DNA of 64,000 nucleotides, taken from Pseudooceanicola marinus. Lineage in GTDB: Bacteria; Pseudomonadota; Alphaproteobacteria; Rhodobacterales; Rhodobacteraceae. Each line of letters opens with the position of its first letter. Position 1 is the first letter of the stretch. Where the stretch lies: contig NZ_PGTC01000029.1 in NCBI RefSeq assembly GCF_002786295.1, positions 188,064-252,063 of the forward strand, given 5' to 3'. The translations under genes and the position numbers were made by a program. Shown here one piece after another: positions 38,984 through 62,864 of this stretch. The notes beneath the pieces were generated by a model. The model had not been told where the DNA came from, made no database searches, and saw nothing but the letters and a program-made list of their open reading frames with translations.

Positions 38984-39096
38984 CCCCCGGCTCCCGTTTT
39001 TCGCAACAATCTTGATCTTGGCATGCATATTTGGAACGATGGCGCTCCGGGGCGCGGTCGAACCGCGCCATCGACGCACCTTTGGGAGGAGGGGCC

Positions 39097-40035
39097 GTGA
39101 TCGAGAAATTCACCTCGTCGTCCATACCGACGGGCCGCAGGCTCGATTTCTGGAACGAGCTTTGCGAACAGAGCCTGCGAGGCACCACCGTCGACAGTGA
39201 AAGCCGCGCGTTCCGGGCCGAGATGTGGCGGCTGTCTCTTGGGGACACCACGCTGCTGCGACCGCGGTCCGATGCCTCGACCGTGCGCCGTCCGGCGGAT
39301 CCGTCCGGCTGCGAGGGGCGATCCGTGGTGTTGCACATGCAGGTCGGGGGCCGCTCTCGGATGCAGCTGCGCGACCGCACCATCGAGCTGGCGCCCGGGG
39401 ATTTCGTCCTGACCGATGCGGGCCACGGCTATGTGTTCGACTTGTCGCAGGGCCATGACCTGATCGTCGTCGAAATGCCGATGGAGGTCCTGCAAAGCCG
39501 CATCGACGGGCTGGCCGGCCACCTCGACCGGGCGCAGACCATCTTCACCCCCGGCGGGCGACTCTTTCGTGAATTCCTCTTCTCGCTCTGGCGGCAGGAT
39601 TACATCGGCGCAGGCGATCCGGTCTTCGGACAGGGCGCCTCGCAGGTGCTGGCCGATCTCTGGGTCATGGCCCTGCGCCAGGGGCAGGAGGAACCCCAGG
39701 CGCTGAAGGGACGCAAGGAGGCGCTGCGCCAGCGCATCCTGGCCTTCATGGATGCGGAACTCTTCGACCCGGAGTTGACCATCGCCCAGATCGCCAGCGA
39801 GTTCGGCCTGTCACCGCGCAGCCTGCAGGCGCTGTTTTCCGAGATGGGCACGACGCCCACCCGCTACATCCTGTCAAAACGCCTGGACCGCGCCGCCGAT
39901 TGCCTGCTGGCCGAACCCGGGCGCTCGGTGACCGAGATCGCCTTCGAACAGGGCTTCAACGACAGCGCCTATTTCGCCCGCCGCTTCCGCGCCAAGTTCG
40001 GCGTGACCCCGACCCAATGGCGCCAGCGCACCTGA
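39097..40035 (+). CDS. AraC-family transcriptional regulator
   Basis: A 312-residue regulator. The N-terminal half is the AraC_binding_2-type ligand domain (SSIPTGRRLDFWNELCEQ, LAPGDFVLTDAGHGYVF). The C-terminal 100 residues are the double HTH (IAQIASEFGLSPRSLQALFSEMG and VTEIAFEQGFNDSAYFARRFRAKFG). The start is GTG at 39097 with GGGAGGAGGGG immediately upstream; an ATG 66 bases earlier has none. It precedes the cupin-MFS-SDR-ADH genes on the same strand and is their likely activator. The direct repeat GTCCCGTCT at 40051 and 40089 is a candidate binding site. Confidence 0.9.
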   Translation: MIEKFTSSSIPTGRRLDFWNELCEQSLRGTTVDSESRAFRAEMWRLSLGDTTLLRPRSDASTVRRPADPSGCEGRSVVLHMQVGGRSRMQLRDRTIELAPGDFVLTDAGHGYVFDLSQGHDLIVVEMPMEVLQSRIDGLAGHLDRAQTIFTPGGRLFREFLFSLWRQDYIGAGDPVFGQGASQVLADLWVMALRQGQEEPQALKGRKEALRQRILAFMDAELFDPELTIAQIASEFGLSPRSLQALFSEMGTTPTRYILSKRLDRAADCLLAEPGRSVTEIAFEQGFNDSAYFARRFRAKFGVTPTQWRQRT

Positions 40036-40050
40036 ACCGCTCGCGCATTT

Positions 40051-40097
40051 GTCCCGTCTTACCTGCGTCTAAATCCAAGTCGCCTCCCGTCCCGTCT
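40051..40097. promoter_or_regulatory. Direct repeat upstream of the cupin operon
   Basis: GTCCCGTCT occurs at 40051-40059 and 40089-40097, 38 bp apart, between the AraC gene and the structured leader. Direct repeats are the usual AraC-family site layout, although spacing near 21 bp is more common. Confidence 0.35.
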
Positions 40098-40116
40098 GCC
40101 ACTCTCATCGGACCAA

Positions 40117-40271
40117 CGCGCGAACGGGAGGAGGCCGCGGAGGGTGGGCAGCGATGCCCCCGCCACGGTTGCGCCAAGGAGGAGGTATCTCGACGCCGGG
40201 CCCCTGCCCGGTTCAGGTCGGGCGCTGCCTTGCGCTCTCCCGTTCCGCAGGAACGGCAAAGGAGAGCCAGC
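40117..40271 (+). promoter_or_regulatory. Structured leader with mutually exclusive helices, riboswitch-like
   Basis: A 9-bp helix joins GAACGGGAG (40122-40130) to CTCCCGTTC (40237-40245) and encloses at least two hairpins, GGGC-AGCGAT-GCCC (40146-40159) and CCGGGC-CCCT-GCCCGG (40196-40211). The 3' strand of that helix can instead form a second structure: GCTCTCC (40234-40240) with GGAGAGC (40261-40267), plus CGTTCC (40241-40246) with GGAACG (40250-40255). This second fold buries the Shine-Dalgarno sequence GGAGAG just before the ATG at 40272. The two folds exclude each other, the layout of a translational riboswitch. I could not match it to a known class by eye. Confidence 0.55.
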
Positions 40272-40820
40272 ATGAAAGACGACGCAAGCGCAGTGATGAC
40301 CACCCCGCCCTCGGACGCCTTCCGCATCGTGGATGTCCCCGACCCCTTCAAGGAGCTTGCAGCGCGCCGGGGCGCGGAAGGAACTTTCGTCGGGACGGAC
40401 GAAGCCGAAAGTCCCTGGATTCCCTTCGGCGACAACGCCGCGATCCGCCACCTGGCCTTCGATGTGCGCAACAACATCTTTTCCAACGTTCTCTGGATCA
40501 AGAAGCCAGGCGTCATCGGCACCCATTATCATCGCGGCCAGATCGTGATGATCTGCCTCGAAGGCAGCGCCCGCTACCTGGAATACGACTGGGTCGCCAC
40601 TCCCGGGGCGTTCATCCAGGAAGCGCCGGGCGAGGCGCACACCCTGGTCACCGATCATCCCCAGGGCACCAAGCTCTTCGGCTGGATGCAGGGCGCGATC
40701 GACTTCTACGATGAAGACGCAAACTTCTCGTTCACCGCGGATGTCTGGTGGTTCATGAACCACTACGAGACCTACTGCAAAGAGAACGGTCTGGAGATCA
40801 ACGAGCAGCTCTACATCTAA
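40272..40820 (+). CDS. Cupin protein of the 2,4'-dihydroxyacetophenone dioxygenase family
   Basis: A 182-residue single-cupin protein. Metal ligands are expected from GTHYHRGQ (H-x-H, with glutamine in the usual glutamate position) and from APGEAHTLV. WIPFGDNAAIRHLAFDVRNN and the C-terminal FSFTADVWWFMNHYE are characteristic of this family, whose founder cleaves a C-C bond of a hydroxyaryl ketone with one iron. The start follows GGAGAGCCAGC, the site that the leader can occlude. It opens an operon with an MFS transporter, SDR and zinc alcohol dehydrogenase, so oxidation of an alcohol or ketone substrate is plausible. Confidence 0.85.
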   Translation: MKDDASAVMTTPPSDAFRIVDVPDPFKELAARRGAEGTFVGTDEAESPWIPFGDNAAIRHLAFDVRNNIFSNVLWIKKPGVIGTHYHRGQIVMICLEGSARYLEYDWVATPGAFIQEAPGEAHTLVTDHPQGTKLFGWMQGAIDFYDEDANFSFTADVWWFMNHYETYCKENGLEINEQLYI

Positions 40821-40916
40821 GGGCGCCATCCACCAGGAGACAGCGCCGGGCGGGGAGGAGACCGCGCCCGGTGCAGCCATCCAGGCTTCGGCCACAGTAC
40901 ATTCAGGGAGGACGAC

Positions 40917-42170
40917 ATGGCCACCATGTCACAGGCGGGCGCAGGCAAGCAGCGGTCCGCACGGTATCAGTTCATCATGGTCGCGCTTCTCAGCCTGACC
41001 TTCGGCGTGGTCTTCTTCGACCGCAACGCCCTGGGCTTTCTCATGCCCTTCATCAAGCCCGAACTGGGGCTGAACAATTCGCAGATCGGCATGCTGGCCT
41101 CTGCCCTGTCGCTGACTTGGGCCGTGTCGGCCTTCCTCATCGGGCGGTTGTCCGACAGCCTGGGCAAGCGCAAGACGCTGCTGATCGCCTCGACCGTGGC
41201 ATTCTCGCTCTGCTCGGTGCTCTCGGGCCTTGCGGGCAGCTTTGCCCTCCTGCTGGGCGCGCGCCTCCTGATGGGCGCCGCCGAGGGTGGCTTCATGCCC
41301 ATCGCCCACACCATGGTCGCCGCCGAGGTCTCGCCCAAGCGGCGCGGGCTGGCGCAGGGGATCACCCAGAACTTCGGCTCGAACCTGCTGGGCTCCTTCG
41401 TGGCGCCCGTCCTGCTGGTCGGTTTCGCCACCATGTTCGGCTGGCGCGAGGCCTTCTACCTGGCCGGTGTGCCCGGGCTGCTGTGCGCCCTGATGATGTG
41501 GTTCTACCTGGATGAGCCCGCCGCGCCGCCCAAACACGACGGCCCCAAGGCCTCGGCAATGGAAGTGCTGCGGAACCGCAATGTGCTGATCTGCGTCTTG
41601 CTGTCGATCCTGCTGGTGTCCTACCTGGTGATCTGCTGGGCCTTCATGCCCCTGTTCCTGACACAGCAACGGGGCATCGCGCCGGAAAGCATGGGCTGGC
41701 TGATGGGCTCGCTTGGCATCTCCGCCACCATCGGCAGCTTCCTGGTTGCTGGCCTGTCGGACAAGTACGGGCGCAAGCCGGTCATGACGCTGATGCCCCT
41801 GCTCGGCCTCCTGTTGCCCTTCGGCGCGCTCTACTTCGACGGGTCGCTCTGGGTGCTGGCGATCTTCTTCTTCATCGGCTGGGGCGTAAACGGGATCTTC
41901 CCGCTGTTCATGGCCACCGTGCCCTCAGAAAGCGTCGATCCGCGGTACGTGGCCACCGCGCTTGGCCTGTCGATGGGCCTGGGCGAGGCGCTTGGCGGGG
42001 TTCTTGCGCCCTCGCTGGCCGGGGTCGCCGCCGATGCAGTGGGCCTGCAGGCGCCGATCTGGATCATGGCGGGGCTGTCGCTGGCCTCCTTCGTGATCGC
42101 GATGTTCCTGAAGGAAACCGCGCCCAGCCAGATCGGCAAGGCCGCGCCGGTCGCCACCGCCGCCGAATAA
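40917..42170 (+). CDS. MFS transporter, anion:cation symporter-like
   Basis: A 417-residue, 12-helix major facilitator. Motif A is GRLSDSLGKRKTLL between helices 2 and 3, repeated as GLSDKYGRKPVMTL in the second half. VVFFDRNALGFLMPFIKPELGL is the typical N-terminal helix of the organic-acid (ACS) branch. The start follows GGGAGGACGAC. It lies between the cupin and SDR genes and probably imports the substrate of that pathway. An 11-bp hairpin follows its stop. Confidence 0.88.
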   Translation: MATMSQAGAGKQRSARYQFIMVALLSLTFGVVFFDRNALGFLMPFIKPELGLNNSQIGMLASALSLTWAVSAFLIGRLSDSLGKRKTLLIASTVAFSLCSVLSGLAGSFALLLGARLLMGAAEGGFMPIAHTMVAAEVSPKRRGLAQGITQNFGSNLLGSFVAPVLLVGFATMFGWREAFYLAGVPGLLCALMMWFYLDEPAAPPKHDGPKASAMEVLRNRNVLICVLLSILLVSYLVICWAFMPLFLTQQRGIAPESMGWLMGSLGISATIGSFLVAGLSDKYGRKPVMTLMPLLGLLLPFGALYFDGSLWVLAIFFFIGWGVNGIFPLFMATVPSESVDPRYVATALGLSMGLGEALGGVLAPSLAGVAADAVGLQAPIWIMAGLSLASFVIAMFLKETAPSQIGKAAPVATAAE

Positions 42171-42257: not shown

Positions 42258-43082
42258 ATGACCACACTTGAGAAATTCGACCTGACCGGCCGCTCCGCCT
42301 TCGTGACCGGCGCCGCCTCGGGCCTGGGCCTGGCCTATGCCGAGGCGATGGCCGAGGCCGGCGCCAAGGTGACCCTGGCCGATCGCGATGCAGACGCCCT
42401 GGCCCGCGAGGTGAAGCGCCTCGACGAAGAGGGCTTCAGCGTGCGCGCGGCCTCCCTCGACATCACCGATCGCCCTGCCCTGACGGCTGCCGTCGACGCC
42501 CATGTCGCGGCCTTCGGCGGCTTCGACATTCTCTTTGCCAATGCCGGGGGCGACAGCAGTCCCGGGTTCTGGAACCCCGAGGGCCACCGCAATCCCGACG
42601 GCCAGGTCGACACCCTGGACCCGGAGGCCTGGGACCGCTCCATCGCGATCAACCTCACCGGCACCTTCAACTCGATCCGCGAAGCGGTGCGCGCGATGAA
42701 GGCCGCGGGCCGCGGCGGGTCGATCATCTGCACCTCCTCCAACGCGGCGGTGGTCAACGAACCCATTGTCGGGCTGCCCTACATGCCCGCCAAGGCCGGG
42801 GTGAAGCACATGGTCGAGCACCTGGCGCTGGAGCTGGCCGAATTCCGCATCCGCGTGAACGCCATCGCCCCCGGCCCCTTCGTGACCAACATCGGCGGCG
42901 GCTGGCTGAAGAAGGACCCTACGGTGCGCGCCAAGTGGGACAGCCTGGTGCCCCTGGGCCGCGTGGCGGAAACCGACCAGATGAAGCCGCTGGCGCTCTA
43001 CCTTGCCTCGGACGCATCGGATTACATGACCGGGGCGCATCTGATGATCGATGGCGGCATGGCATTGGGAAGCTTCAAATGA
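42258..43082 (+). CDS. Short-chain dehydrogenase/reductase
   Basis: A 274-residue classical SDR. The cofactor motif TGAASGLG is at residues 18-25, NAGG in ILFANAGGD, serine in CTSSNAA, and the Y-x3-K pair in PYMPAKAG. The C-terminus ends ASDYMTGAHLMIDGGMALG, the usual SDR close. The acid after the second strand (LADRDADAL) suggests NAD(H) preference. Its stop overlaps the next start as ATGA. With the zinc dehydrogenase it would give two consecutive oxidations or an oxidation-reduction pair on the imported substrate. Confidence 0.91.
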   Translation: MTTLEKFDLTGRSAFVTGAASGLGLAYAEAMAEAGAKVTLADRDADALAREVKRLDEEGFSVRAASLDITDRPALTAAVDAHVAAFGGFDILFANAGGDSSPGFWNPEGHRNPDGQVDTLDPEAWDRSIAINLTGTFNSIREAVRAMKAAGRGGSIICTSSNAAVVNEPIVGLPYMPAKAGVKHMVEHLALELAEFRIRVNAIAPGPFVTNIGGGWLKKDPTVRAKWDSLVPLGRVAETDQMKPLALYLASDASDYMTGAHLMIDGGMALGSFK

Positions 43083-44083
43083 ACAAGGCAGCGATTTTCC
43101 AGGGCTTCGACGCCCCCCTTGCGGTGCAGGACCTGGCGATGCCAGAGCCTGCCCCCGACGGGGTGGTCCTGCGCGTCTCCCATTGCGGCATCTGCGGGTC
43201 CGACCTGCACATGGCCCACGATCCCGCCTTCGGCGCGCAGCCGGGCGATGTCTTCGGCCATGAATTCGCCGGCGAGGTTGTGGCCCTTGGCCGCGACTGC
43301 ACGCAGTTGCAGGTCGGGGACCAGGTGTCGGTGATCCCGCTGGGCGGCTGCGGCCAGTGCCAGACCTGCCGCGTGGGCGAGCCCGCCTGGTGCAGCCAGA
43401 TGACCCTCCAGGGCGGTGGCTACGGCCAGTTCACCACCACCACCGAGCGCCAGTGTCGCAAACTGCCCGCAGGCGTCACCGCCGAAGAGGGCGCATTGGC
43501 CGAACCTCTGGCGGTGGCCCTACACGGCGTGGCCCTGTCGGGGCTGACGGCGGGCGACCGGGTGCTGATCCTCGGCGCCGGGCCGATCGGACTGGCGACC
43601 GCCTTCTGGGCGCGCCGCCTGGGCGCCACCGCCGTCGTCGTGCAGGACATCCACCCGGAGGCGCGCGACCTGGCGCTGGCCATGGGCGCCACCGATTTCC
43701 TCTGCACCCCCGACGCCCCGGTCGAGGCCAGCGACGCGGCGCTCGGGCGCAAGGCCGACATCGTCTTTGACTGCGCGGGCGCCCCGCCCCTGCTGGCGCA
43801 GGCCATCGACCAGGTTCGGGTCAAGGGGCGGATCGTGATCCTCGCGCTCAGCACCCGGGAGACCAGTTTCATCCCATTCGCCGCGGTGTCGAAGGAGGTC
43901 GCGGTGCTGACCTCCGCCTTTTTCACCCTGCGCGAATACGAGGCGGCGCTGGACGCGCTGGCCAGCGGTGCCCCCGTGGCCGAGGCGCTGGTGACCCGGA
44001 CCATTTCGCTGGACGACCTGCCGGAGGTCTTCGAGGGCATGAAGACGGGCCGCTCGCACGGAAAGGTCATCGTCTGCCCCTGA
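43079..44083 (+). CDS. Zinc-dependent medium-chain alcohol dehydrogenase
   Basis: A 334-residue MDR enzyme. Catalytic zinc ligands are C36 in CGICGSDLH and H61-E62 in GHEFAGEV. The structural-zinc lobe is intact as C-x2-C-x2-C-x7-C (GGCGQCQTCRVGEPAWC). The nucleotide fold has LILGAGPIGLATAFWARRLG. The overall pattern is of the sorbitol/threonine-dehydrogenase-like branch acting on polyols or secondary alcohols. The ATG overlaps the SDR stop by 4 bases, so a longer frame starting inside the SDR gene is not used. It is the last gene before a bidirectional terminator. Confidence 0.91.
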   Translation: MNKAAIFQGFDAPLAVQDLAMPEPAPDGVVLRVSHCGICGSDLHMAHDPAFGAQPGDVFGHEFAGEVVALGRDCTQLQVGDQVSVIPLGGCGQCQTCRVGEPAWCSQMTLQGGGYGQFTTTTERQCRKLPAGVTAEEGALAEPLAVALHGVALSGLTAGDRVLILGAGPIGLATAFWARRLGATAVVVQDIHPEARDLALAMGATDFLCTPDAPVEASDAALGRKADIVFDCAGAPPLLAQAIDQVRVKGRIVILALSTRETSFIPFAAVSKEVAVLTSAFFTLREYEAALDALASGAPVAEALVTRTISLDDLPEVFEGMKTGRSHGKVIVCP

Positions 44084-47346: not shown

Positions 47347-49818
47347 ATGACCCATGCGCACACCCACCCCGACAGCCACCAACCCGCCGACGGCGACGAG
47401 GCGATCACCCGCGACCCGGTCTGCGGGATGCTGGTCGACCCGGACGCGGACAAGCCGACCGCCGAACATGACGGGCACCTCTACCACTTCTGCTCCTCCG
47501 GATGCCGGGACACGTTCCGCGCCGCGCCGCAGGACTATCTGACTGCCACCGATCCTGTTTGCGGCATGGAGGTCGACCGCTCCACCGCCGCGCATATGCT
47601 GAAACACGAGGGCCAGAAGGTCTATTTCTGCTCCGCCCACTGCCAGGAGAAATTCGAGGCCGATCCGCAAGCCTACGCAGACGGCGTGCCCGCCCCCGAA
47701 CCGATGCCCGAGGGAACGCAGTACACCTGCCCCATGCACCCCGAGATCATCCGCGACGCCCCGGGCGATTGCCCGAAATGCGGCATGGCACTGGAGCCGA
47801 TGACGCCCTCCGCCGACAGTGGCCCCAACCCCGAATACGTTGATTTCAAGCGCCGCCTGGCGATCACGGCCCCGCTGGCCGCCCTGGTCTTCGTGCTGGA
47901 GATGGGCAGCCACATCGGCATCCCCTTCGCCGACTGGATCGGGCACACCGCCTTCGGTTGGCTCCAATTCGCCCTGGCCACGCCGGTGGTGCTGATCTGC
48001 TGGCCCTTCTTCAAACGGGGCTGGGCCTCTGTCACCAACCGCTCGCCCAACATGTGGACGCTGATCGCGCTCGGCACCGGGGCAGCCTATGTCTTTTCCG
48101 TCGTGTCGCTGCTGGCGCCCGGCCTCTTCCCCGCCGCCATGCGCGACGACATGGGTATGACGCCGGTCTACTTCGAGGCCGCCGCCGTGATCCTGGTGCT
48201 GGTGCTGATCGGACAGGTCATGGAACTGGCCGCGCGGGAGAAGACGGGGGACGCGATCCGCGCCCTGATGGACCTCGCGCCGAAGACCGCGCGCCGGGTC
48301 AGCGACGGTGACGAGGAAGATGTGCCGCTGGACCAGCTGGCGCAGGGCGACATCCTGCGCGTGCGCCCGGGCGAAAGCGTGCCGGTGGACGGCGTGGTGA
48401 CCGAGGGCCGCTCCTCCGTCGATGAAAGCATGATCACCGGCGAACCCGTCCCGGTGGAGAAGACCGAAGGCGAGCCGGTCACCGGGGGCACGCTGAACAA
48501 GTCCGGCAGCTTCCTGATGCGGGCCGAGACGGTGGGTGCCGATACGACGCTGTCGCGCATCGTGGACATGGTATCGAAGGCGCAACGCTCGCGCGCGCCG
48601 ATCCAGGGCACGGCGGACCGGGTCGCCGCCTACTTCGTCCCCGCCGTGGTGGGCGTCGCGCTCCTGGCCTTTGTCGCCTGGGCGGCCTTCGGCCCCTCGC
48701 CCGCCCTGTCCTACGCCTTCGTCGCCGCCGTTTCGGTGCTGATCATCGCCTGTCCCTGTGCCCTGGGCCTGGCGACACCCATGTCGATCATGGTCGCCAC
48801 CGGACGCGGCGCCTCCGCCGGGGTGCTGATCCGCGACGCCGAGGCGCTGGAGCGCTTCGCCTCCGTCGAGGTGTTGGTGGTCGACAAGACCGGCACCCTG
48901 ACCGAGGGCAAGCCCGCGCTGACGGATGTGGAGCCTGAGGGGATCGACAAGACGGCGTTCCTCACCCTGGTCGCCGCCCTTGAACGCGGGTCGGAGCACC
49001 CGCTGGCCGAAGCCATCGTCACCGGCGCCCGCGAGGCCGGGGCCGAGGACAGGGACGCGCAGGACTTCGACGCCGTGACCGGCCAGGGCGTCACCGGCAC
49101 CGTGGACGGCCAGCGCGTGGCCCTGGGCAATGCCGCGCTGATGAAGGGCGAAGGCGTCGACATCAACGCTCTGACCGATCGGGCCGAGGCCCTGCAGGCC
49201 GAGGGCAAGACCGCGATGTATGTCGCCATCGACGGACAGGCCGTCGGTCTGATTGCCGTGGCCGACCGCATCAAGGAGACCACGCCGGAGGCCATCCGCG
49301 CCCTGCACGACGCGGGCCTGCGCATCGTCATGGCCACCGGCGATGCCGAGGCCACGGCGCGGGCTGTGGCGGGGGAGCTGGGCATCGACGAGGTCCACGC
49401 CGGTGTCAGCCCCGAAGACAAGCACGCCCTGATCGAGAAACTGCGCGGTGAGGGCCTGTCGGTCGCCATGGCCGGCGATGGGGTCAACGACGCCCCGGCC
49501 CTGGCCGCCGCAGACGTGGGCATCGCCATGGGCACCGGCGCCGACGTGGCGGTGGAAAGCGCGGGCGTCACGCTGGTGAAGGGGGAGCTGACGGGTATCG
49601 TCCGGGCTCGCCACCTGGCGGAGGCGACCATGCGCAACATCCGGCAGAACCTGTTCTTCGCCTTCGTCTACAACTCGGCCGGCGTACCCCTGGCAGCCGG
49701 CATCCTCTACCCGTTCTTCGGCGTGCTGCTGTCGCCGATCGTGGCGGCGGCGGCGATGAGCCTGTCGTCGGTCTCGGTGATCGGCAACGCCCTGCGGCTG
49801 CGTGCGAAGAAGCTCTGA
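47347..49818 (+). CDS. copA: Copper-translocating P1B-type ATPase with two YHS domains and a metal-binding hairpin
   Basis: An 823-residue P-type ATPase. The N-terminus replaces the usual HMA domains with a His-rich tip ([11 protein letters not shown]), two YHS domains ([15 protein letters not shown] and [14 protein letters not shown], each ending in a FCSxxC-type turn), and a heavy-metal-binding hairpin ([20 protein letters not shown]). The membrane part has CPC in [13 protein letters not shown] (near 468), the phosphorylation site DKTGTLT (near 513) and [10 protein letters not shown] (near 712). [11 protein letters not shown] and [14 protein letters not shown] match Cu(I) specificity. The start follows AGGAGATCTTC. 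It exports copper from the cytoplasm. Confidence 0.94.
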
Positions 49819-50260
49819 CCGGGTCTGAGGACAGCGCGCAAACTGCCCTCGCGTCCATCGCGGGGGCACCATGCCGCAATGAAGCGGCCAACCGAAAAGG
49901 CCTCGGTGGCCTGCGCACCGCAAGGACGGCTGAGCTATCGTAGTGGGGGGAGGTGGTACCGCCTCCCCGGTTTGAACGGGGGACCTCTGGATCCACAATC
50001 GATAATCTCTCCCAAAAATAAAATAAAAACATCAGCTTACATAGGGGAGTTGTGTCTCATGGCAAACAAGAGCGGATTCAAACATTTTTGCCCCCATGTA
50101 TCGTGAAAGTCCTACTGACAACTGTCCCTTCGAAGACTTCTGTCCTCGCCCACCAAGACACAGGGCGCCTTGAGGTCCGCCACCCGCGTCATTCAGGATC
50201 TAAAACAGAGCAATGAACCACACTGCGTGACAAAGCTAAGCGCCCCTAGACTAACGATTA
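49819..50260. other. Gap after copA: island boundary
   Basis: Apart from the tRNA-His fragment at 49954-49998, I see no gene. An imperfect hairpin (GGCC-ACCGA/TCGGT-GGCC, near 49888-49913) may end the copA message. From about 50000 rightward the sequence becomes clearly richer in A and T. Confidence 0.6.
49954..49998 (-). other. 3' fragment of tRNA-His(GUG), candidate attachment site
   Basis: Read on the minus strand this stretch is the 3' part of a tRNA: anticodon loop TTGTGGA (anticodon GTG), 3' anticodon stem TCCAG, variable loop AGGTC, T arm CCCCG-TTCAAAC-CGGGG, acceptor strand AGGCGGT, discriminator A and CCA. An A at position 73 is the alphaproteobacterial tRNA-His state. Upstream of the anticodon loop the expected sequence is lost: the 5' anticodon strand reads ATCGA instead of CTGGA, and there is no D arm or 5' acceptor strand. 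Such 3' copies arise when a tyrosine recombinase integrates in a tRNA gene. The intact tRNA and the integrase would lie to the right, outside the window. Confidence 0.72.
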
Positions 50261-50641
50261 TTAATAGAGAATAGAATAGCGTCGAAGCTTCATTTCGATC
50301 TCCGAGAAAGAAACGGGCTTTTTCAGGCAATCTTTTGCGCCCGCCTCAAGAGCCCTGCGCAAGAGGTCATCGTCGGCATTGCTACTGACCATCAAGATCG
50401 GGGTCTTCCGATGGGTTGTCGTCTGATGGACAAGTCTGCAAAACTCCAGCCCGTCAATTTCAGGCATCATAAAGTCGGTGAGGATTATATCAACCTCGAC
50501 TTCTCCCTTTAATAGATCCTCCAAAGCCGTCCTGGGATCACTGTAAGACGCGACACAGCTAAAACCAAGTTCGCTGAGGCATATTCGTGTGAACTCGCGA
50601 GCGACATCAGAATCATCAACGATGGCCACTTTATTTTTCAT
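50261..50641 (-). CDS. Single-domain response regulator (CheY-like)
   Basis: A 126-residue receiver domain with no output domain. Acidic pocket residues are D9-D10, the phosphorylated aspartate is D56 in ILTDFMMP, threonine/serine in LMVSSNAD, and lysine in DCLKKPVSF. The start at 50641 has AGGA nine bases upstream. It is likely a phosphotransfer or motility/signalling intermediate. The PAS histidine kinase 12 kb away in the same low-G+C region is one possible partner, but nothing in the sequence links them directly. Confidence 0.9.
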   Translation of the reverse strand: MKNKVAIVDDSDVAREFTRICLSELGFSCVASYSDPRTALEDLLKGEVEVDIILTDFMMPEIDGLEFCRLVHQTTTHRKTPILMVSSNADDDLLRRALEAGAKDCLKKPVSFSEIEMKLRRYSILY

Positions 50642-50795
50642 CCCAGTCGATCCTAAAGTATATTTCTAGTGACATCCCCAAAAGAAGCACACCATGAATT
50701 CCGAAATGTGCGCGCGCCAAGCTCTTCAAGGGAACCTATCTTCAAGAAGCCACCACCAGTTATGCAGCCCTTACCTCAGGCTCACACCCCACAAC

Positions 50796-50978
50796 CTAAA
50801 TCCTTTTTCCGACGAAAGTTTTGGAGAAAACTCGCACGCATGCGATATCGCCGTGCTCCCAGACCAACTCGCCTTGTGCCGTGCTATACTCACCAAGACG
50901 CACACACGCGATGGCCTGCGGGTTAACACGGGAAGCGCCTTCAGCGGCTTGGCGGGTATTTCGAAACTGAACGATCAT
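50796..50978 (-). CDS. 60-residue conserved-looking small protein
   Basis: The frame MIVQFRNTRQAAEGASRVNP... starts at 50978 with AGGAGG eight bases upstream, an unusually good ribosome-binding site. The sequence NPQAIACVRLGEYSTAQGEL followed by GDIACVRVFSKTF has the strand-turn-strand look of short FlbD/SwrD-like proteins (a residue-placement resemblance, not a proven match). It stands alone between the response regulator and the lysozyme-like gene. A plus-strand frame over the same region has no such start signal and is rejected. Confidence 0.5.
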   Translation of the reverse strand: MIVQFRNTRQAAEGASRVNPQAIACVRLGEYSTAQGELVWEHGDIACVRVFSKTFVGKRI

Positions 50979-51098
50979 TAGCTTGTCCTCCTGTGATCAT
51001 GACTTGATCTTCACACATTGTCGCACTGAATGCGCGTCAGCTGAGGCATAGGCGCTCTACTCTTCCGTATACCCATACCAGCACGCGCATAAGACAAA

Positions 51099-51116
51099 TG
51101 GCAGCCGAGGCTGCCA
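51099..51116 (-). terminator. Terminator of the lysozyme-like gene
   Basis: TGGCAGCC and GGCTGCCA form an 8-bp stem around two bases, followed on the minus strand by ATTTGTCTT. It lies 9 bases after the stop codon at 51126. Confidence 0.7.
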
Positions 51117-51125
51117 CTCAACCTG

Positions 51126-51854
51126 TTAAAATTCGAGGAGTAGCCCTCGTTCCCCCGAAAATATCGTTCGCATGTGAGAATCGAATTCGCTCCAACTGAT
51201 CACAGCACGGTTCCCGGCAATGCCGTGGTAATGGGAGCGTCCGTTGGACGTGGGAAAGGCCGCCCAAATCCGGGCCAGGTTCTCCATGAAGCGATGACGG
51301 CTGATTTCCCCATCCAGGAATGCAGGCAATCCGGCATCCACCAGAAGGATATCGGCCAACCGGTCCTGAACCTCGGGGGAAAACCGCGTGTCTTGATCGA
51401 CCCCCGCCTGCCGAACGACACTGTGCAGCGTCGTCGGAATGAATTGGTATCGCCCGATGGCATGGTGCTGGCCAGGGGTGCGATCAATCCAGTGGAATAT
51501 CTCACCAATCGTCATTTCAGTCGGCCGCTTGCCGGGTCTGATACGTGCGCCATACTGTACGGCGTCGTAGTCCTTGGGACCGGCATCTACCCAGCCGATC
51601 AACTGCCTGAGCCTGCCGACTTGAGAGCCAGAGGCGACAAAAGCCCGCCTGTTTTGCTGAAGAGCCGTATCTCGGGAAGGAGCCTTGAGATAGATACGAT
51701 CTTCCGGCCCGGGCGGGAACAGGGTGAAACCGAAATCCTTTCCAGAGAAGGCCTGATAATTTGCGAGCGAAAAAGGCTCGGCGGCAAGTTCTTTGCCTAG
51801 AGAAATCGTTGTCAGCGCGATGGCAAGGACGGCAGCATATCCTTTCCGTTTCAT
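51126..51854 (-). CDS. Exported lambda-lysozyme-like (GH104-type) protein
   Basis: A 242-residue protein with a signal peptide (MKRKGYAAVLAIALTTISLG). The C-terminal half contains QHHAIGRYQFIPTTLHSVVRQAGVD, close to the phage lambda R muramidase motif with GRYQF, and FSPEVQDRLADILLVDAG. The catalytic glutamate is expected in EIFHWIDRTPG. The N-terminal 90 residues are not recognised. Such enzymes cut peptidoglycan by transglycosylation, here in the periplasm. The start follows GGAGTGAGAC. It lies between the FlbD-like gene and the DUF11 operon, so local wall opening for assembling a surface structure is a possible role. Confidence 0.72.
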   Translation of the reverse strand: MKRKGYAAVLAIALTTISLGKELAAEPFSLANYQAFSGKDFGFTLFPPGPEDRIYLKAPSRDTALQQNRRAFVASGSQVGRLRQLIGWVDAGPKDYDAVQYGARIRPGKRPTEMTIGEIFHWIDRTPGQHHAIGRYQFIPTTLHSVVRQAGVDQDTRFSPEVQDRLADILLVDAGLPAFLDGEISRHRFMENLARIWAAFPTSNGRSHYHGIAGNRAVISWSEFDSHMRTIFSGERGLLLEF

Positions 51855-52012
51855 GTCTCACTCCATGTGTTGATCTAGCATGGAGCAATTGTGCCAACCC
51901 GCCTTCCCACTCTCACGGGTGCAGAGAGACAGTCGGAACCTCGAAAGTATATTCGGTGTCGCAACCCGGATATGACACTGCGCCTGAGTGCGCTCGACTT
52001 GCCTTTCGCTTC

Positions 52013-52054
52013 AAGAAAAGGGACCACGCCACTGATGCGCATGTGGCGTGGTCC
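52013..52054 (-). terminator. Terminator of the DUF11 surface operon
   Basis: GGACCACGCCAC (52021-52032) and GTGGCGTGGTCC (52043-52054) form a perfect 12-bp stem. On the minus strand it is followed by CTTTTCTT. It is the downstream end of the three-gene operon. Confidence 0.8.
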
Positions 52055-52073
52055 GCCCCGGGAAACTTTGAAA

Positions 52074-55000
52074 TCAGTTGCCCAGGAAGCCGTCGAGCTG
52101 GTCCCAAAGAGAGGTGTCGAGCAAGAGATTGAAGCGGAGATAGAAGCCTTCCTGATAAAGATCGCCGGCCCCGGGCATGCTCCGGTTCGACTTGTTGTAG
52201 CCCACGGCCAGGAGTGTGCCCTTACGGGGAGAGAAGCCGAACTCTGCGCCCAATCCACTTGCGGAACTGTCGCGGTCATCCCAGAGATGGGTTGCGTTCA
52301 ACCCGATCTGGAAGCGATCATCCCCGAACTCGTAATTCACTCCTGCCTGCAACAGCTGTGTGGTGGAGGCTGCGGAGACATCCGAACCGGTCGCGACACT
52401 CTGATGCTGACCTGCATATTTGCCATTCAGGCGCAGATCCTGATCAATCTCATAGGACGCGTCCACGGACCACAGATGGGTTTCCGAGCGGCCATAGCGC
52501 TCCTCGAGGCGGTGCTCGTACCAGGCCAGCACCTCGAGCCGCGGGTCGGCAACCGGTCGATAGGCAAGCCCGGCTCTTGTGCGCATACGAATGTGGTCCT
52601 CGCCGTTGCGCTGGTCGACTGCAAGTCGTGTCCGGCCCAGCACCGTCAGGTCCGGAGTGACCTCGCCTGCGAGGCCAAGGCTGGCATAATAGGTCTGGCC
52701 ACTCGGCTCGAACGTCGTTTCGAGATCGGCATCACCAACCCAGGCGCCATCGCCCGACTCCCATTTCGCACCAAACGCGACCGAGGTCAGTTCGTGCTCA
52801 TTGGTTTCCATCTGCCGCGAATGCTCCACGCCCAGAGTGAAGCTGGTCAGATCATTCGGCTTCCAGGTCGCCATGAGTGACTGGTTCAGGGTCGTCTCGA
52901 TCTCGTTCGCACCTCGGGAAAGCTCAGTCGACCCCTCCAGCCATTCATTCAGCTCATAGGAAAACCCCAGGACTGATCGGGTGATCACAGCCTCATCGCC
53001 AAAGGTCAGTTCAACTTCATTGTATGCACGCCAGCCTGGCTTCGGCTCCTTGTACATCCCCAGCGTCAATTCGGGATCGTGACCCTGTCCGGAGAGAGGA
53101 TAGCGCAGCCGCGCTTCAATGGTGGTGCCAGGCCGGGTCTTTGGCATCCAGTGGGCACCCAGAATGAGCGAGGTCGTGTCCTCGCGGGCGGTTCCCCGAC
53201 GGTCACGCTGATACTCGATCCCCAGATCACCGCGAAACTGCGGGCTGAAACGACGCGAGTAAAGCGCGTCGAGTGTCAGTCGATCAAATGAGTTGATCCT
53301 GTCACGGGTCCATTCGGCCCCGATCACCAGGTCACTCTTACGATCCAGCTCAAGACCATAGCTCAACCGGACCTGGCTTGTGCCTGGTCGTGCAAGCCCA
53401 CCATTTGCGGAAAAGTTATGTCCGGTATGGATTGCCTCGAACGTCAGCCGCTCGGTTTCGGAGATGAACTCATAGGACAGACGCGCAGCAGTGTCACGGA
53501 TCCCGTTTTCATCCTCGCTGTGCGCAACTTCTGCCTCCCACACACCACCATTACCACGATCATGGCGCAGATAGGCGGATTGCAGACGCTCCCGCGCCGG
53601 GTTCCCTTCCGGTGCGTCCGCGTGAACAGCGCGCGCACCAATCGTGGTCCGCTCGGTCACGGCATAGTTGACTTCTCCTCCATAAAGCCAATACCGCTCG
53701 CTCCCGGTTTCCTCGACCTCATAGGTCACGCGGATCGAGACAGGGTTGCCGTCCGCATCGAACTGTCGCACGGGAGCATCAAAAGTGATCGTGTCACGGA
53801 AGAAGTCGAGGAGGTAATCCGTGCCACGCCGCATCACGGTACTCGAGAGGATATCCCCGCCCTCTTCGTCCCGCACAACAATTTCCACGCGCTCAGAGCC
53901 GTCGACGTAGCCCTGCAGGTTCAGGTCATAGGGCCCCGAGACACCCCGTCCCGGAATTTCCACGACCATCTGTTCCTGTCCCGTACGAGCCGCAAAGACT
54001 GTCACGGAAACACGATCGTTCTCCCAGTGCGCCTTGGCACCGGTCGTGACCCTCCGCAGCCCTCCGAGCTTGAAGGCACTGGCTTCCGGCTCGATGGCGA
54101 TGTCGCCGTACAGCACGTAGGACCGCCCCTTCTCGACTTTGACGAATAGATTGCCAGAGGATTGCGCATCGGCCCCGCGCTCGGAGTTGTCGCCATAGAC
54201 GGGGTAATATTCATCTCCCCGAATGTCGCGAAACAGGCGGTCTTCAGTATCCCTGTCGGAGCTGTAGCGCAGGGTCAGTAGCGCATCGCCGCGGATTACG
54301 CCCTTGAGATAGATCTCTCCACGTAGGCCGGTGGCGGTGTCCTCGAATTCGCTGAACCCGTCTGGCGAAAGAATACCGCCTCCCGAACTCCCCAGTGAGA
54401 CCGCGCCCTCGATCACACCGACCAGAACGCGCTGATCGAGATCCGGAGTAAAAGTGATCCTCGCCTCAGCTTCGCCGAAGGTCCCTTTTACGCTTAGAAG
54501 ATCGGGACCCGCAGCTTGGGGCGGCGTCAGGTTGAATGTCGCCTCACCATTGTCGATATATGCCTGAACGCCCGGGGTGCCAGGTCGAATGTCCGTCACG
54601 TCCCACAGCGCATTGCGTGCGGTCAGCGTCACCGTGCCCGAGGCTGGAACCGGCAGCCCTCGGGCGTCGAGCACACGCACGACTACGGGCACGGCCGAGG
54701 CCGGGTTCGCCGGCGCGGTTTCAGGCAGGATGATCTCGAAGCGTGCCGGATCGCCCGGGGCCATCATCCGGATTTCCTCGCGCACGCGCTCGATGCCAAA
54801 GCCATCGCGCCCCACCAGCGTCAACCGGTTTTCGCCTGCGTCGAGCTTGACCGCCACATAGTCGAGCGCCTGCACGTTCCCCTTCTCCCAGGAACTGCGC
54901 TCGCCCACGCGGTCTGTCCCAAGCTCCCGACCGTTCAGCAGAAGAGACAGGTTCAGGTCGGCCTTCCCTTTGATCCGGATGCTGACCGTCCGACGGCTCA

Positions 55001-57800
55001 GCACCGCGCCTTCTGCCAGGTCAATGAACCCTGGTGCATTGTCAAGAGACCGGATCAGGCTGTCGAGGGGTTGGAGACGTGCGGCCATCGCCGCCTTTTG
55101 CGGTAGCGTCTCGGGCAACTCTGCCGCATCGGCCCCGACAAGCATATCCGGGGTGAGCTGCGTCGTGGTTGCGATACCCGCTTCGCTGCGTGACGCCCGC
55201 ACCGGGGCGCGGCTGGCCTCAATCGGCAAATCGCCGACAATGCCGGAGCGAAGCGATCCGGCTTGTTCGAAACGATCACGACGCAAGTCGATCTCCGCAA
55301 GCGCCTCAGGCGTACAAGCTTCGACAGCGAAATGTTCGGCGCGCAGTTCTCCCTTGCGCAGCGGCACGATGCGCGATCCGCCCCGGCGCAGATCATTGGT
55401 ACGCGTCACGTAGACTGCGGTCCCCACTGGCAATGTCTGTTCCTGCACCACGAATGCATGGGTCACGGGACGCAACCCATAGAGCGAGTATTTTCCGTTG
55501 ATATCGGTAACGACCGAGAGGCCCTCCTGCGTTACGATGCGCACACCGGGAATGCCGGGCTCGTCAATGCCGCCGCGAATGCCGTTGCGATCGCAATCCA
55601 TAAAGACAGAGCCCACCACGGTCCCCTCGCGGGCAAAGACGCCGCCGGAATTGTCCAGGCGCACGACTGCGCGCGCCAGAGGCGATTGCCGCAAAGTTCC
55701 CGTTCCTGCCTGGCGACCACTGAGGATTGCCGTATTTTCGTTGCGGCCCTCGCGGGCGGCAGCCGTGAACAGCATCACGTAGCTGAGCTCGTGGCGGGCC
55801 AGGGGTTCGATGGTGCCCAAATCATGCAACAGATCGCCTGCGGCATCGCGGCGCGGATCCGCATGCCGGACACCATCCAGCGTTACGGAACCCTCTACCA
55901 GCTGTGCACCATATGGGGGGCGGTCCATCAGCTCGGCACCGATCAGCGCCTGGTCCATATTGTTGGACAGGGTCAACGTGTAGGTTACGAATTCCCCCTG
56001 CGAAATGCGATCCCGGTCAGAGGCCTTCGTCAAAGCGAGAGGCACTCCGTAGTGGGGATCGACAGGAACGTCGGAGACAAACAGTGCCCCGCCTGAATGC
56101 TGGAAGGCAGCTCCATACCCGGCATCGGCCACATTCCGTCCGAACCCGGCAAAATCCACCCGCACCGAAGGGTATTCCCAAGCGGGCGTCTCGACCAGAA
56201 CGTAGCGATAGTCTCCTGCAGAGACTTCACCGAAGGCAAAGAAGCCGCGCGGATCGGTCTCGGTTCTCGCAATTTCGCGTCCGGTGATCGCGTCGACCAG
56301 TGCAATCGTGCCGCCCTCGACGGACGCATTGGTCAGCGAATTGAACAGGAAGTTCCCCGGCGAAACCAGCAGCACATCCTCAAGCATGCCCTCGCCACAG
56401 CTCGCCGTCGCGATAATCTGGTCGCCATTATCGGTGGCCATGACCTGATCGCCTGGGAGAACACGATTCATCCGGGCAAGCGGGATCGCCGTGGTCAGGA
56501 ACACCCCGGTGTTCGCAGCCGTCTCGGTCGCAATGACGGTTTCGACGTCGCCGGTCGTGGCGCTGCGCAGCGTAATCGAAACCGTCTCGATGGCATTCGC
56601 CTGATTGCACGCTCCCGCAGTCAGACGCAGACGGCTATCTTCACCCGGCTGACCGATGTCCTCATCTTCCCCGGTTGTGGGGTCTACAAAAGACAGCAGC
56701 CCCCCATGTGTTCCGTCTTGCGAAAAAATCGTTGTGTTGGACCTTTGAACAGCTTCGGCGCCCAGATAGGTTTCCGCCGTGTTCCGAACCGTGACGTTCC
56801 CCAGAATCTGCGGCACGCGCACGGCGAAGACCGGATCACTAGAGCGACCGACCGGAAAATCCCCTTCGTGGAAAAACGCAACCGCGTCGATTTCGTCAGC
56901 TGCGGGAGCCACCCGTTGGAAGTCGTTCGGGCCGTCACCGCGCTGATGGTAGAGCGGCGTCATGCCGCCTTCGGAAACCACCGAATGGAAGATGCTGTTC
57001 AGGGGAATGCGGTCTCTGACCAGAACACCCCGCGCAGCCTGTCCGTCGATGCGCAGCAGGCCGCCATCGATCTCGGCATACCCAGGGATGGTCTGTTCGG
57101 AGTTATTGCGCAAACGCAGGGTGTATTCGAGAAGAACATCTTCATCGGCCTGACGGATTGTCTGGAGCTTTTCCAGCTCTAGGCCGGCGCTCACAATTTC
57201 GGTCCGGCCGGAAGCTTCGCCAGTCAAGACGGCGTCCGCCGCGCCGTCCGGGGTGGCGTTCACAAGCAGAACCGACCCTAGCGTTTGACCCGTAACAGCC
57301 GCAGTCGAGACCGCAAACTCGTAGATCAACGGGATCATATCACCGGGTGTCAGTGCAATCTGCGTGGTCGCAGTCAGTTCCTGATCACCTGAATCAATAA
57401 CACCGTTGCCATTGATGTCCCGCACCAGTCTTCCATCCAGCGTGAGCATCGGCAGGTTCCGGCCCTCAACGCGCAGGGTCGCGGCAAGGCCCGTATTCCC
57501 GGTGTTCGCGACCTCGAAATAGTACTGGCCGATCGCGCCGCGTGACAGGTCCAGTTCGGTGAAGCCTTGAACCGAGATATCCGGAACGGCAGTGACCAGG
57601 GCTTCGACGGCGTTGGAGCGGACGGTCTCGACAATGCCCAGTCGAGGATTGAAATATGTGGTCTCTGCAATGTTGCGGATGATGGTCCCTGCAGGTGCGG
57701 GCGCTGCCGCTGCGGTGCCGGGGACGAGAACAGAGATAAGTGCGGCAGTCCGGATCGTTTTGCCTGCGCACAGGGAGACCGTTTGAAGAAAACCGCGCAT
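52074..57800 (-). CDS. Giant outer-membrane protein: DUF11-like repeats, SdrD-B-like domain, C-terminal beta barrel
   Basis: A 1908-residue exported protein (signal peptide within residues 1-33, ALISVLVPGTAAAA). The N-terminal two-fifths carries beta-sandwich repeats of the DUF11 type (e.g. ISQGEFVTYTLTLSNNMDQA near 595). Near 727-770 lies an SdrD-B-like unit with DCDRNGIRGGIDEPGIPGV and TDINGKYSLYGL. A middle region contains YYPVYGDNSERG. From about 1370 to the end, alternating amphipathic strands with Arg/Glu/Tyr pairs indicate an outer-membrane barrel. The start has GGAGCGAGCTG upstream. The layout suggests surface presentation through or on the outer membrane; no catalytic motif is seen. 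Confidence 0.75.
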   Translation of the reverse strand: MRGFLQTVSLCAGKTIRTAALISVLVPGTAAAAPAPAGTIIRNIAETTYFNPRLGIVETVRSNAVEALVTAVPDISVQGFTELDLSRGAIGQYYFEVANTGNTGLAATLRVEGRNLPMLTLDGRLVRDINGNGVIDSGDQELTATTQIALTPGDMIPLIYEFAVSTAAVTGQTLGSVLLVNATPDGAADAVLTGEASGRTEIVSAGLELEKLQTIRQADEDVLLEYTLRLRNNSEQTIPGYAEIDGGLLRIDGQAARGVLVRDRIPLNSIFHSVVSEGGMTPLYHQRGDGPNDFQRVAPAADEIDAVAFFHEGDFPVGRSSDPVFAVRVPQILGNVTVRNTAETYLGAEAVQRSNTTIFSQDGTHGGLLSFVDPTTGEDEDIGQPGEDSRLRLTAGACNQANAIETVSITLRSATTGDVETVIATETAANTGVFLTTAIPLARMNRVLPGDQVMATDNGDQIIATASCGEGMLEDVLLVSPGNFLFNSLTNASVEGGTIALVDAITGREIARTETDPRGFFAFGEVSAGDYRYVLVETPAWEYPSVRVDFAGFGRNVADAGYGAAFQHSGGALFVSDVPVDPHYGVPLALTKASDRDRISQGEFVTYTLTLSNNMDQALIGAELMDRPPYGAQLVEGSVTLDGVRHADPRRDAAGDLLHDLGTIEPLARHELSYVMLFTAAAREGRNENTAILSGRQAGTGTLRQSPLARAVVRLDNSGGVFAREGTVVGSVFMDCDRNGIRGGIDEPGIPGVRIVTQEGLSVVTDINGKYSLYGLRPVTHAFVVQEQTLPVGTAVYVTRTNDLRRGGSRIVPLRKGELRAEHFAVEACTPEALAEIDLRRDRFEQAGSLRSGIVGDLPIEASRAPVRASRSEAGIATTTQLTPDMLVGADAAELPETLPQKAAMAARLQPLDSLIRSLDNAPGFIDLAEGAVLSRRTVSIRIKGKADLNLSLLLNGRELGTDRVGERSSWEKGNVQALDYVAVKLDAGENRLTLVGRDGFGIERVREEIRMMAPGDPARFEIILPETAPANPASAVPVVVRVLDARGLPVPASGTVTLTARNALWDVTDIRPGTPGVQAYIDNGEATFNLTPPQAAGPDLLSVKGTFGEAEARITFTPDLDQRVLVGVIEGAVSLGSSGGGILSPDGFSEFEDTATGLRGEIYLKGVIRGDALLTLRYSSDRDTEDRLFRDIRGDEYYPVYGDNSERGADAQSSGNLFVKVEKGRSYVLYGDIAIEPEASAFKLGGLRRVTTGAKAHWENDRVSVTVFAARTGQEQMVVEIPGRGVSGPYDLNLQGYVDGSERVEIVVRDEEGGDILSSTVMRRGTDYLLDFFRDTITFDAPVRQFDADGNPVSIRVTYEVEETGSERYWLYGGEVNYAVTERTTIGARAVHADAPEGNPARERLQSAYLRHDRGNGGVWEAEVAHSEDENGIRDTAARLSYEFISETERLTFEAIHTGHNFSANGGLARPGTSQVRLSYGLELDRKSDLVIGAEWTRDRINSFDRLTLDALYSRRFSPQFRGDLGIEYQRDRRGTAREDTTSLILGAHWMPKTRPGTTIEARLRYPLSGQGHDPELTLGMYKEPKPGWRAYNEVELTFGDEAVITRSVLGFSYELNEWLEGSTELSRGANEIETTLNQSLMATWKPNDLTSFTLGVEHSRQMETNEHELTSVAFGAKWESGDGAWVGDADLETTFEPSGQTYYASLGLAGEVTPDLTVLGRTRLAVDQRNGEDHIRMRTRAGLAYRPVADPRLEVLAWYEHRLEERYGRSETHLWSVDASYEIDQDLRLNGKYAGQHQSVATGSDVSAASTTQLLQAGVNYEFGDDRFQIGLNATHLWDDRDSSASGLGAEFGFSPRKGTLLAVGYNKSNRSMPGAGDLYQEGFYLRFNLLLDTSLWDQLDGFLGN

Positions 57801-57839
57801 CAGCTCGCTCCATGAAACAGATGAAAATTTGGGAAAGGT

Positions 57840-57881
57840 GGCACCCTCGGGGTCGGGAGGGAGACGGACCCCGAGGGTGCC
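57840..57881 (-). terminator. 15-bp hairpin between the 879- and 1908-residue genes
   Basis: GGCACCCTCGGGGTC (57840-57854) and GACCCCGAGGGTGCC (57867-57881) form a perfect 15-bp stem with a 12-base loop, 10 bases after the stop of the upstream gene. A moderate T-rich run follows on the minus strand. It is likely an internal attenuator. Confidence 0.75.
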
Positions 57882-57890
57882 TTGGCTCGC

Positions 57891-60530: not shown

Positions 60531-60580
60531 TGTATTAGCTCCTCAGTTCCAGATTTCGAGATATGTTGGGGCGGGCGCGA

Positions 60581-61093
60581 TCAGTTCACGCGGACGCGGT
60601 AGGTGTTCAGGGCGACGTCATCGGCCTCGAGCGGCTCGGACAGGGTCCAGCGCACGGCCGTAATATCGGCCTCGGGCAGCGGCTCCTCACGCAGCACGCC
60701 ATCCTCAGCCAGGACCTTGCGCACAGCGGGAAGTGTCGACCATTCGAGGCCCTCCTGCTTGGGATCGAGCTCGGCCTGCACCTCGAAGACGGCGGGGATC
60801 GAACTGCTCTGGCCGTCGAGGGTCAGGGAGACCCCTGCGGGAACAGGCGCCTGGACGACGAGCCCCGAGAGATCTTCGTCAGTCCCGTTCTCGTGCCGGA
60901 TCTGATATTGAATCACTTCCCCAGGGCGAACGCTGTCCCGCTCGACGAGATCTTCGGCACCGTCTTGGGTCACCTCGACCACACGGAATGAAAAGTCGCT
61001 GACCAGGGACTCGGCGTGGGCCGTACCACCGATCAGGACGAGAGCAATCCCGGCAGCCGCGGCTCGGGAAAGCTTGGAGGTTTGGATAAACAT
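60581..61093 (-). CDS. Small exported DUF11-like protein
   Basis: A 170-residue protein with a signal peptide (AAAAGIALVLIGGTAHAES, cleavage near residue 28). The mature part is one DUF11-like domain (DSVRPGEVIQYQIRHENGTD, VQAPVPAGVSLTLDG) plus a C-terminal extension. It is the first gene of the operon with the 879- and 1908-residue proteins. The start at 61093 follows AAGGGAAGACATCC and avoids a longer frame with no ribosome-binding site. Size and position suggest an accessory or minor subunit of the surface structure. Confidence 0.78.
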   Translation of the reverse strand: MFIQTSKLSRAAAAGIALVLIGGTAHAESLVSDFSFRVVEVTQDGAEDLVERDSVRPGEVIQYQIRHENGTDEDLSGLVVQAPVPAGVSLTLDGQSSSIPAVFEVQAELDPKQEGLEWSTLPAVRKVLAEDGVLREEPLPEADITAVRWTLSEPLEADDVALNTYRVRVN

Positions 61094-62154: not shown

Positions 62155-62188
62155 GATGTTGTCCTCCCTCGCCCCCGCCTGCAATTCT

Positions 62189-62281
62189 CTATCGGTATAG
62201 CATTTCCTCTGAATAGTATACTCAAAGGAGAACCATCACCGCGCGCCTATGCGCCTGCTTCACCTCTATACGATGGTATAG
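62189..62281. promoter_or_regulatory. Two related inverted repeats in the divergent promoter region
   Basis: CTATAC-GATG-GTATAG (62266-62281) has perfect 6-bp arms. CTAT-CGGT-ATAG (62189-62200) repeats the outer half-sites 77 bp away. They lie between the regulator and the histidine-kinase operon and are candidate regulator sites. Confidence 0.45.
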
Positions 62282-62359
62282 CGCCTCTGTACTTCTGCTT
62301 TGTCCCTTCGAAGATCAGTGTGGCGTAGACATCTGCCATCATCCTTGATGGAGGTGGAA

Positions 62360-62842: not shown

Positions 62843-62864
62843 AGCGACGCCGGAAGGACAGACA

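Follow-up and report, generated by a model that had tools for sequence, protein, structure and literature searches.

The leader that precedes the first gene of a cupin-MFS-SDR-alcohol dehydrogenase operon in Pseudooceanicola marinus can be drawn by base pairing in two mutually exclusive folds, one of which frees the Shine-Dalgarno (SD) sequence of the cupin gene while the other buries it. Computation shows that these pairings exist, that they exclude each other, that they exceed what chance would give and that the leader is strongly conserved between two genomes. This is the basis for what we consider the most likely reading, at a probability of about 0.42, namely that this RNA would be a translation-control leader answering to triggers, known or not, other than a small-molecule ligand. 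All coordinates refer to the window, the whole 64,000-nucleotide stretch of contig NZ_PGTC01000029.1 that was analysed, unless a genome (G000, the genome of the window itself; G018, a sister genome of the same genus) or an extracted locus (L) is named.

The operon and its leader

The operon runs in the order cupin, MFS transporter, SDR dehydrogenase and zinc-type alcohol dehydrogenase, with an AraC-family gene upstream (Table 1). The cupin scored 25.1 bits against PF12973 (Cupin_7), which is under the family cut-off of 27, and some of its plasmid relatives, at 55.6% identity, are annotated as belonging to the 2,4'-dihydroxyacetophenone dioxygenase family. Further downstream, the stop codon of the SDR gene and the start codon of the alcohol dehydrogenase gene overlap as ATGA (43079-43082), probably as ordinary coupling within the operon. 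Upstream of the leader no match to a sigma-70 consensus promoter was found; transcription probably starts near 40112-40118, since a block upstream of that point aligns with related loci and the edge of conservation falls there. A Novosphingobium gene cluster whose most induced gene is of the 2,4'-dihydroxyacetophenone-dioxygenase kind is a relative under transcriptional control, with a common promoter and a phenylpropanone effector, and the terms riboswitch and untranslated region are absent from the main text of the article describing it (PMC10866074).

Table 1. Positions in the window of the leader, its predicted structural elements and the surrounding genes.
Feature	Position	Strand	Remarks
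AraC-family regulator gene	39031..40035	+	PF12833 HTH_18 and PF14525 AraC_binding_2; adjoins the operon
Block aligning in Pseudooceanicola, Mangrovicoccus and Martelella loci (by eye); possible AraC operator/promoter	40049..40085	+	
Conserved non-coding leader	40112..40271	+	1 change in 160 nt against G018
P1, 5' strand	40122..40130	+	9 Watson-Crick pairs with 40237-40245
GGGAGGAGG, exact complement of the CcsR loop motif CCUCCUCCC	40126..40134	+	Overlaps the P1 5' strand
Hairpin P2, within P1	40133..40170	+	Minimum-energy fold
Possible upstream ORF, GTG start, 43 aa	40144..40275	+	TGA overlaps the cupin ATG as ATGA
Hairpin P3, within P1	40171..40235	+	Minimum-energy fold
Second GGAGGAGG, possible second sRNA site	40178..40185	+	
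5' arm of the SD-burying hairpin	40234..40246	+	7 + 6 pairs
P1, 3' strand	40237..40245	+	Common to the SD hairpin
3' arm of the SD-burying hairpin	40250..40267	+	SD inside
SD sequence of the cupin gene	40260..40265	+	AAGGAG
Cupin, 2,4'-dihydroxyacetophenone dioxygenase-like	40272..40820	+	PF12973
MFS transporter	40917..42170	+	PF07690
SDR dehydrogenase	42258..43082	+	PF13561
Zinc-type alcohol dehydrogenase	43079..44083	+	PF08240/PF00107

Pairing, chance and conservation

An earlier note on this DNA, made from its letters without database searches, had described a 9-bp closing helix (P1) around two hairpins and an alternative in which the same 3' strand pairs with the SD region (40234-40240 with 40261-40267, and 40241-40246 with 40250-40255). 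Every one of these pairs is Watson-Crick (9/9 in P1, 7/7 in the SD helix and 6/6 in the inner helix), and P1 does enclose the two hairpins P2 and P3 in the minimum-energy fold. P1 and the SD hairpin compete for one strand, 40237-40245, and because this strand is common to both they are mutually exclusive. The SD hairpin, which consists of the inner CCGUUCC-GCA-GGAACGG and the SD helix GCUCUCC/GGAGAGC, has an energy of -17.5 kcal/mol, and none of 300 shuffles was as good, with the hairpin ends chosen post hoc.

Dinucleotide shuffling of the leader produced an SD helix of at least 7 pairs in 11 of 1000 sequences; when the SD hairpin was preserved, P1 reached 9 pairs or more in 16 of 1000. The two together did not arise in any of 1000. 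The two pairings would not be fully independent if the purine strands had arisen by duplication, and by eye both of these strands start with GAACGG. Of the 140 gene starts surveyed in the window and on the G018 contig, four show 7 or more perfect pairs in the SD helix, and two of these are the leader's two copies (here and in the other gene-start surveys the gene lists come from a crude script and the genes of the window and the G018 contig overlap, so that the totals are not independent). This perfect-pair survey supersedes a looser one for SD hairpins, which singled nothing out (127 of 260 starts at -15 kcal/mol or below) and in which the gene caller missed the cupin start. The claim that the leader has two exclusive folds, one opening and one burying the SD, is supported by these computations, and the observation of the folds is confirmed and is unlikely to be due to chance.

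The total folding energy is unremarkable (z of -0.93 for 40110-40290, -1.03 for 40122-40271 and -0.78 for 40091-40271), with z at -2.46 for 40122-40245, and G+C reaches 75% over 40118-40248. The energies over the longer spans favour a reading without any switch, under which this would be a GC-rich structured leader whose conservation reflects control at the DNA level (a promoter or operator) or a recent gene-conversion tract; the joint pairing, which no shuffle reproduced, speaks against that reading.

The conservation itself was measured against G018, the closest relative at this locus among the genomes compared. Between 40112 and 40289 a single position has changed, 40249, which lies inside the 3-nt loop of the SD hairpin, and the unchanged stretch ends after the sixth codon of the cupin gene. 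The leader (40112-40271) has the fewest changes among 1394 non-coding windows of 160 nt, these being all the fully aligned ones in seven intergenic regions of the alignable part of the window, and it is the sole window among them with at most one change. Elsewhere in the alignment, 379 of 4223 non-coding positions are changed or gapped (9.0%, a rate raised by some intergenic stretches that align poorly), as against 2020 of 45353 coding positions (4.5%; the gene list behind both rates was made by script and partly set by hand). Within the cupin coding sequence, 65 of the 500 positions in 40301-40800 differ, or about 13%; most neighbouring genes differ by 3-6%, and the MFS gene by 7.6%. The low change count of the leader and the end of the unchanged stretch after the sixth codon both count against a leader without a switch. 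Counted over coding and non-coding sequence alike, 178-nt windows with no more than one change make up 2.9%, so the leader's conservation is not extreme by that measure alone, and this figure is on the side of the reading without a switch. The two leader sequences, which differ at one loop position only, are the whole basis for covariation, and with two sequences to compare, gene conversion may lie behind their near-identity.

At the far end of the same comparison, the alignment to the syntenic G018 contig stops exactly at window position 50000. G018 continues past that point with what resembles, on inspection by eye, a tRNA gene end; a search of window positions 49000-64000 gave no tRNA, and the part from 50000 to 64000 is possibly an inserted island beginning at 50000.

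Distribution of the leader and the question of a ligand

Rfam 15 gave no match at gathering scores anywhere in the window, and a search of 40000-40400 at E values up to 10 retrieved only mir-4449, iscRS and Acido-Lenti-1, all far below gathering, with no riboswitch among them. The earlier note had been unable to fit the leader to a known riboswitch class by eye, in line with these results, and its view that a resemblance to glycine aptamers was insufficient is borne out: the likeness is limited to the GGGAG/CTCCC ends of the closing helix, and the glycine riboswitch is not among the matches to 40000-40400 at E values up to 10. An ordinary transcriptional attenuator, which had been named as an outcome that would count against a ligand-sensing RNA, is not indicated either, there being no intrinsic terminator (a GC hairpin followed by a U-run) in 39900-40400.

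Translational riboswitches that sequester the SD have exclusive folds, with an anti-SD strand common to the closing helix and the SD hairpin. The leader is like them in both respects, its predicted pairing and folding yielding exclusive folds that expose or bury the SD, and unlike them in having no known aptamer or ligand and no phylogenetic spread in the searches described below.

Within the genus the leader is present in 2 of 22 genomes, G000 and G018. A further genome, G004, matches one hairpin over 28 nt (E 7.9e-5); the matching stretch is a CCGGGC/GCCCGG hairpin on the other strand near a possible gene start, and we judged it to be chance. A covariance-model search of 394 family genomes, run with stricter filters, matched the genome of the window alone, and a DNA search of 385 genomes of the class retrieved that genome and two short matches, which look like coding sequence by eye and were likewise set down to chance (both of these searches sample evenly from larger groups). 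We read one of the two as a cyclophilin-like gene on the reverse strand and the other as hisZ-like. The covariance model R1, built from the two leader sequences, matched only those two over 36 sources (part of the loci), and when run unfiltered on seven relatives it gave 55 weak matches at E values up to 10, the best at E 0.29, none of them at the leader position of L029 (4855-4964) or L030 (4815-4970). No copy of the leader was found in a DNA search of plasmids.

The nearest orthologous AraC-cupin loci are those of Mangrovicoccus (cupin 88% identical) and Martelella (83%), which align with the window over 40049-40085 and not over the leader; their own leaders differ. A search for further orthologues near Martelella returned one locus alone (in 1 of 346 genomes, and 1 of 13). 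An SD helix of at least 7 pairs occurs at 2 of 88 loci with a usable start, the window included, and both are the leader's copies (of 90 loci, 2 had no start with an SD and were left out, and one locus was counted twice, as L029 and L108). The absence of the leader from the orthologous loci counts against its being a sensor for the operon's own substrate, which would be expected to travel with the operon; as far as these loci show, the leader does not.

The suggestion that this is an undescribed ligand-sensing RNA is accordingly the part of the earlier note that is not supported, and the homologous leaders that it proposed to collect in Rhodobacterales amount, in the genomes searched, to those of G000 and G018. 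Under that suggestion a small molecule would stabilise an aptamer closed by P1 and so open translation. Exclusive folds beyond chance, strong conservation of the leader and a closing helix around two hairpins are what a riboswitch of this sort could look like; against it stand the lack of an Rfam class, the occurrence in two genomes only, the orthologous loci without the leader and the AraC-family regulator gene that already adjoins the operon, and we consider it very improbable. The restriction to two genomes, and orthologues that do without the leader, are also points for the reading without a switch, which, weighed together with the pairing and conservation evidence above, we regard as a serious possibility though a doubtful one.

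A cupin paralogue in G000, G018 and G017 has a short leader of its own, ordered anti-SD strand, hairpin, SD and predicted at -21 to -26 kcal/mol (L027:1418-1482, L026:1418-1482, and on the reverse strand before the cupin start in L024).

Transcript ends, ribosomes and a candidate trigger

We propose that the structured 5' leader of this catabolic operon would control translation of the first gene through its two exclusive folds. In the nascent RNA, P1 could form first and leave the SD free (ON); if the 5' strand of P1 were then occupied, its partner strand would be released and would bury the SD (OFF). The folds presumably form in cells and presumably change translation there.

Which fold wins in calculation is set by both transcript ends. 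Transcripts from 40105, 40112 or 40117 to ends between 40268 and 40290 have P1 at a probability of at least 0.99 and the SD about 0.8 unpaired in both genomes, those ending at 40300 give a mixed outcome, and those reaching 40310 or beyond have the SD hairpin at 0.98 or higher at equilibrium, again in both genomes and with no trigger. The fold with the SD closed is thus reached without a trigger once the transcript carries about 40 nt or more of coding sequence, and in transcripts that reach 40310 or further the coding sequence pairs back into the leader. Transcripts beginning at 40091 have the SD largely paired whichever fold they adopt (0.08-0.19 unpaired). Since longer transcripts are closed at equilibrium and the start at 40091 leaves the SD paired, a free SD would need co-transcriptional folding or early ribosome loading, together with the right transcription start.

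A rival reading has ribosomes open the SD by way of an upstream ORF. In leader-ORF translational coupling by ATGA overlap, an upstream ORF overlaps the start codon of a gene whose SD lies in a hairpin. Similarly, the leader has an ORF running over the cupin start codon and the SD in a hairpin; this ORF differs from such cases in that it has no gene-like codon signature. If coupling through the ORF from GTG 40144 to TGA 40275 were at work, the SD hairpin would block independent initiation and ribosomes finishing the ORF would open it. The ORF is preceded by an SD of 6 nt at a spacing of 9, which together with the ATGA overlap is in favour of coupling, and so are the identical peptides in the two genomes, the G018 change being silent in the ORF frame. 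Overlapping upstream ORFs with an SD of at least 5 nt occur at 11 of 261 gene starts, and an SD of at least 6 accompanies them only in the leader's two copies. A Martelella ORF also has an SD of 6, with its stop beginning 4 nt past the first base of the cupin start; by eye its peptide is unrelated to that of the leader ORF. On the other side, an ORF of this sort with an SD of 5 is present at 9 of the 259 remaining starts, Mangrovicoccus (L108) has no overlapping upstream ORF, and among 14 relatives (L028-L041) ORFs of this kind occur in L034 and L035 with an SD of 5 and in L036 with an SD of 4. This check covered those 14 of 80 relatives and L108, from which the Mangrovicoccus result is taken, L029 having been examined at a wrong start. 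The ORF has a codon score of -0.297, where true genes average 0.80 and 1% of true stretches are as low. The score is also higher than in 99% of stretches read in a wrong frame and, with similar scores in the remaining frames here, the stretch looks non-coding. We rejected the ORF as an ordinary gene by this score, and the coupling explanation as a whole appears unlikely to us.

For the proposed translation-control leader, the best single candidate for a trigger would be an anti-SD sRNA of the CcsR/alpha-r14 type pairing with GGGAGGAGG and switching the operon off, a candidate we nonetheless hold to be improbable on its own. Such an sRNA would pair with the distant strand and break the closing helix, whereupon the mRNA's own anti-SD strand would bury the SD. 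G000 carries a 560-nt cluster of twelve CCUCCUCCC loops (G000:C18:490849-491408), which lies downstream of a DUF1127 gene and folds into hairpin pairs with that motif as the loop. Rfam returned one match above gathering on this cluster, ar14 (61.4 bits against 58.8), and six matches to CcsR1 (35 to 54 bits), none of which attained the gathering score of 65.3. The CcsR RNAs of Rhodobacter sphaeroides are described as co-transcribed with a DUF1127 protein, with a role in stress defence and with flhR mRNA as a target, and CcsR1-4 form four units (PMC10253847, PMC8307010). The cluster in G000 (L139:450-1009, the same 560 nt) reads as a six-unit CcsR/cuckoo-type sRNA cluster with twelve CUCUCCUCCUCCCUG loops.

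When 40126-40134 was blocked in silico in the 40112-40290 transcript, P1 fell from 0.996 to 0 and the openness of the SD from 0.83 to 0.085, and in the 40112-40320 transcript the SD was closed (0.086 unpaired) with or without the block. A 30S subunit on the same purines would act alike in the calculation, so the result of blocking is not specific to an sRNA. As a target of the CcsR loop, the cupin leader ranks 4th of 261 gene starts by hybrid energy and 9th net of the opening cost. The generality of the motif also counts against an sRNA trigger. Over both strands of the genome the GGGAGGAGG/CCUCCUCCC motif occurs 69 times, 12 of these within the sRNA cluster, and the reversed control has more, 104; the motif is anti-SD-like, suits many leaders and resembles ordinary SDs, and CcsR loops could pair with any strong SD.

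Like targets of CcsR1 (RF02791) and alpha-r14 (RF02344), the leader carries an exact 9-nt complement of the loop motif. The strongest complementary site is found not at the translation initiation region but 138-146 nt ahead of the start codon, and the SD region offers the loop six nucleotides, GGAGAG. In Sinorhizobium, the alpha-r14 sRNA NfeR1 silences ntrB with its motif pairing at the translation initiation region (PMC10746234), whereas the best site in the leader is upstream and would act indirectly. Elsewhere in the operon, the purine stretch GGGCGGGGAGGAGA upstream of the MFS gene (40846-40862) ranks 2nd of the 261 starts as a CcsR-loop hybrid; it is costly to open, with a net energy of -2.5 kcal/mol, and is closed in a fold. 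At least as likely as an sRNA trigger is a leader without any dedicated one, governed solely by ribosomes and the order of transcription.

Should the switch fail, the leader would show how far very G+C-rich RNA can mislead with two exclusive folds that are plain to see. If it works, it would be a compact bistable mRNA leader in a Pseudooceanicola-like catabolic operon for which the flipping sequence has been predicted. If, further, an sRNA is the trigger, anti-SD sRNAs would act from a distance as well as by pairing at the start of translation, and the leader would be built like a riboswitch with an sRNA as its ligand, linking aromatic-ketone-type catabolism to stress signalling.
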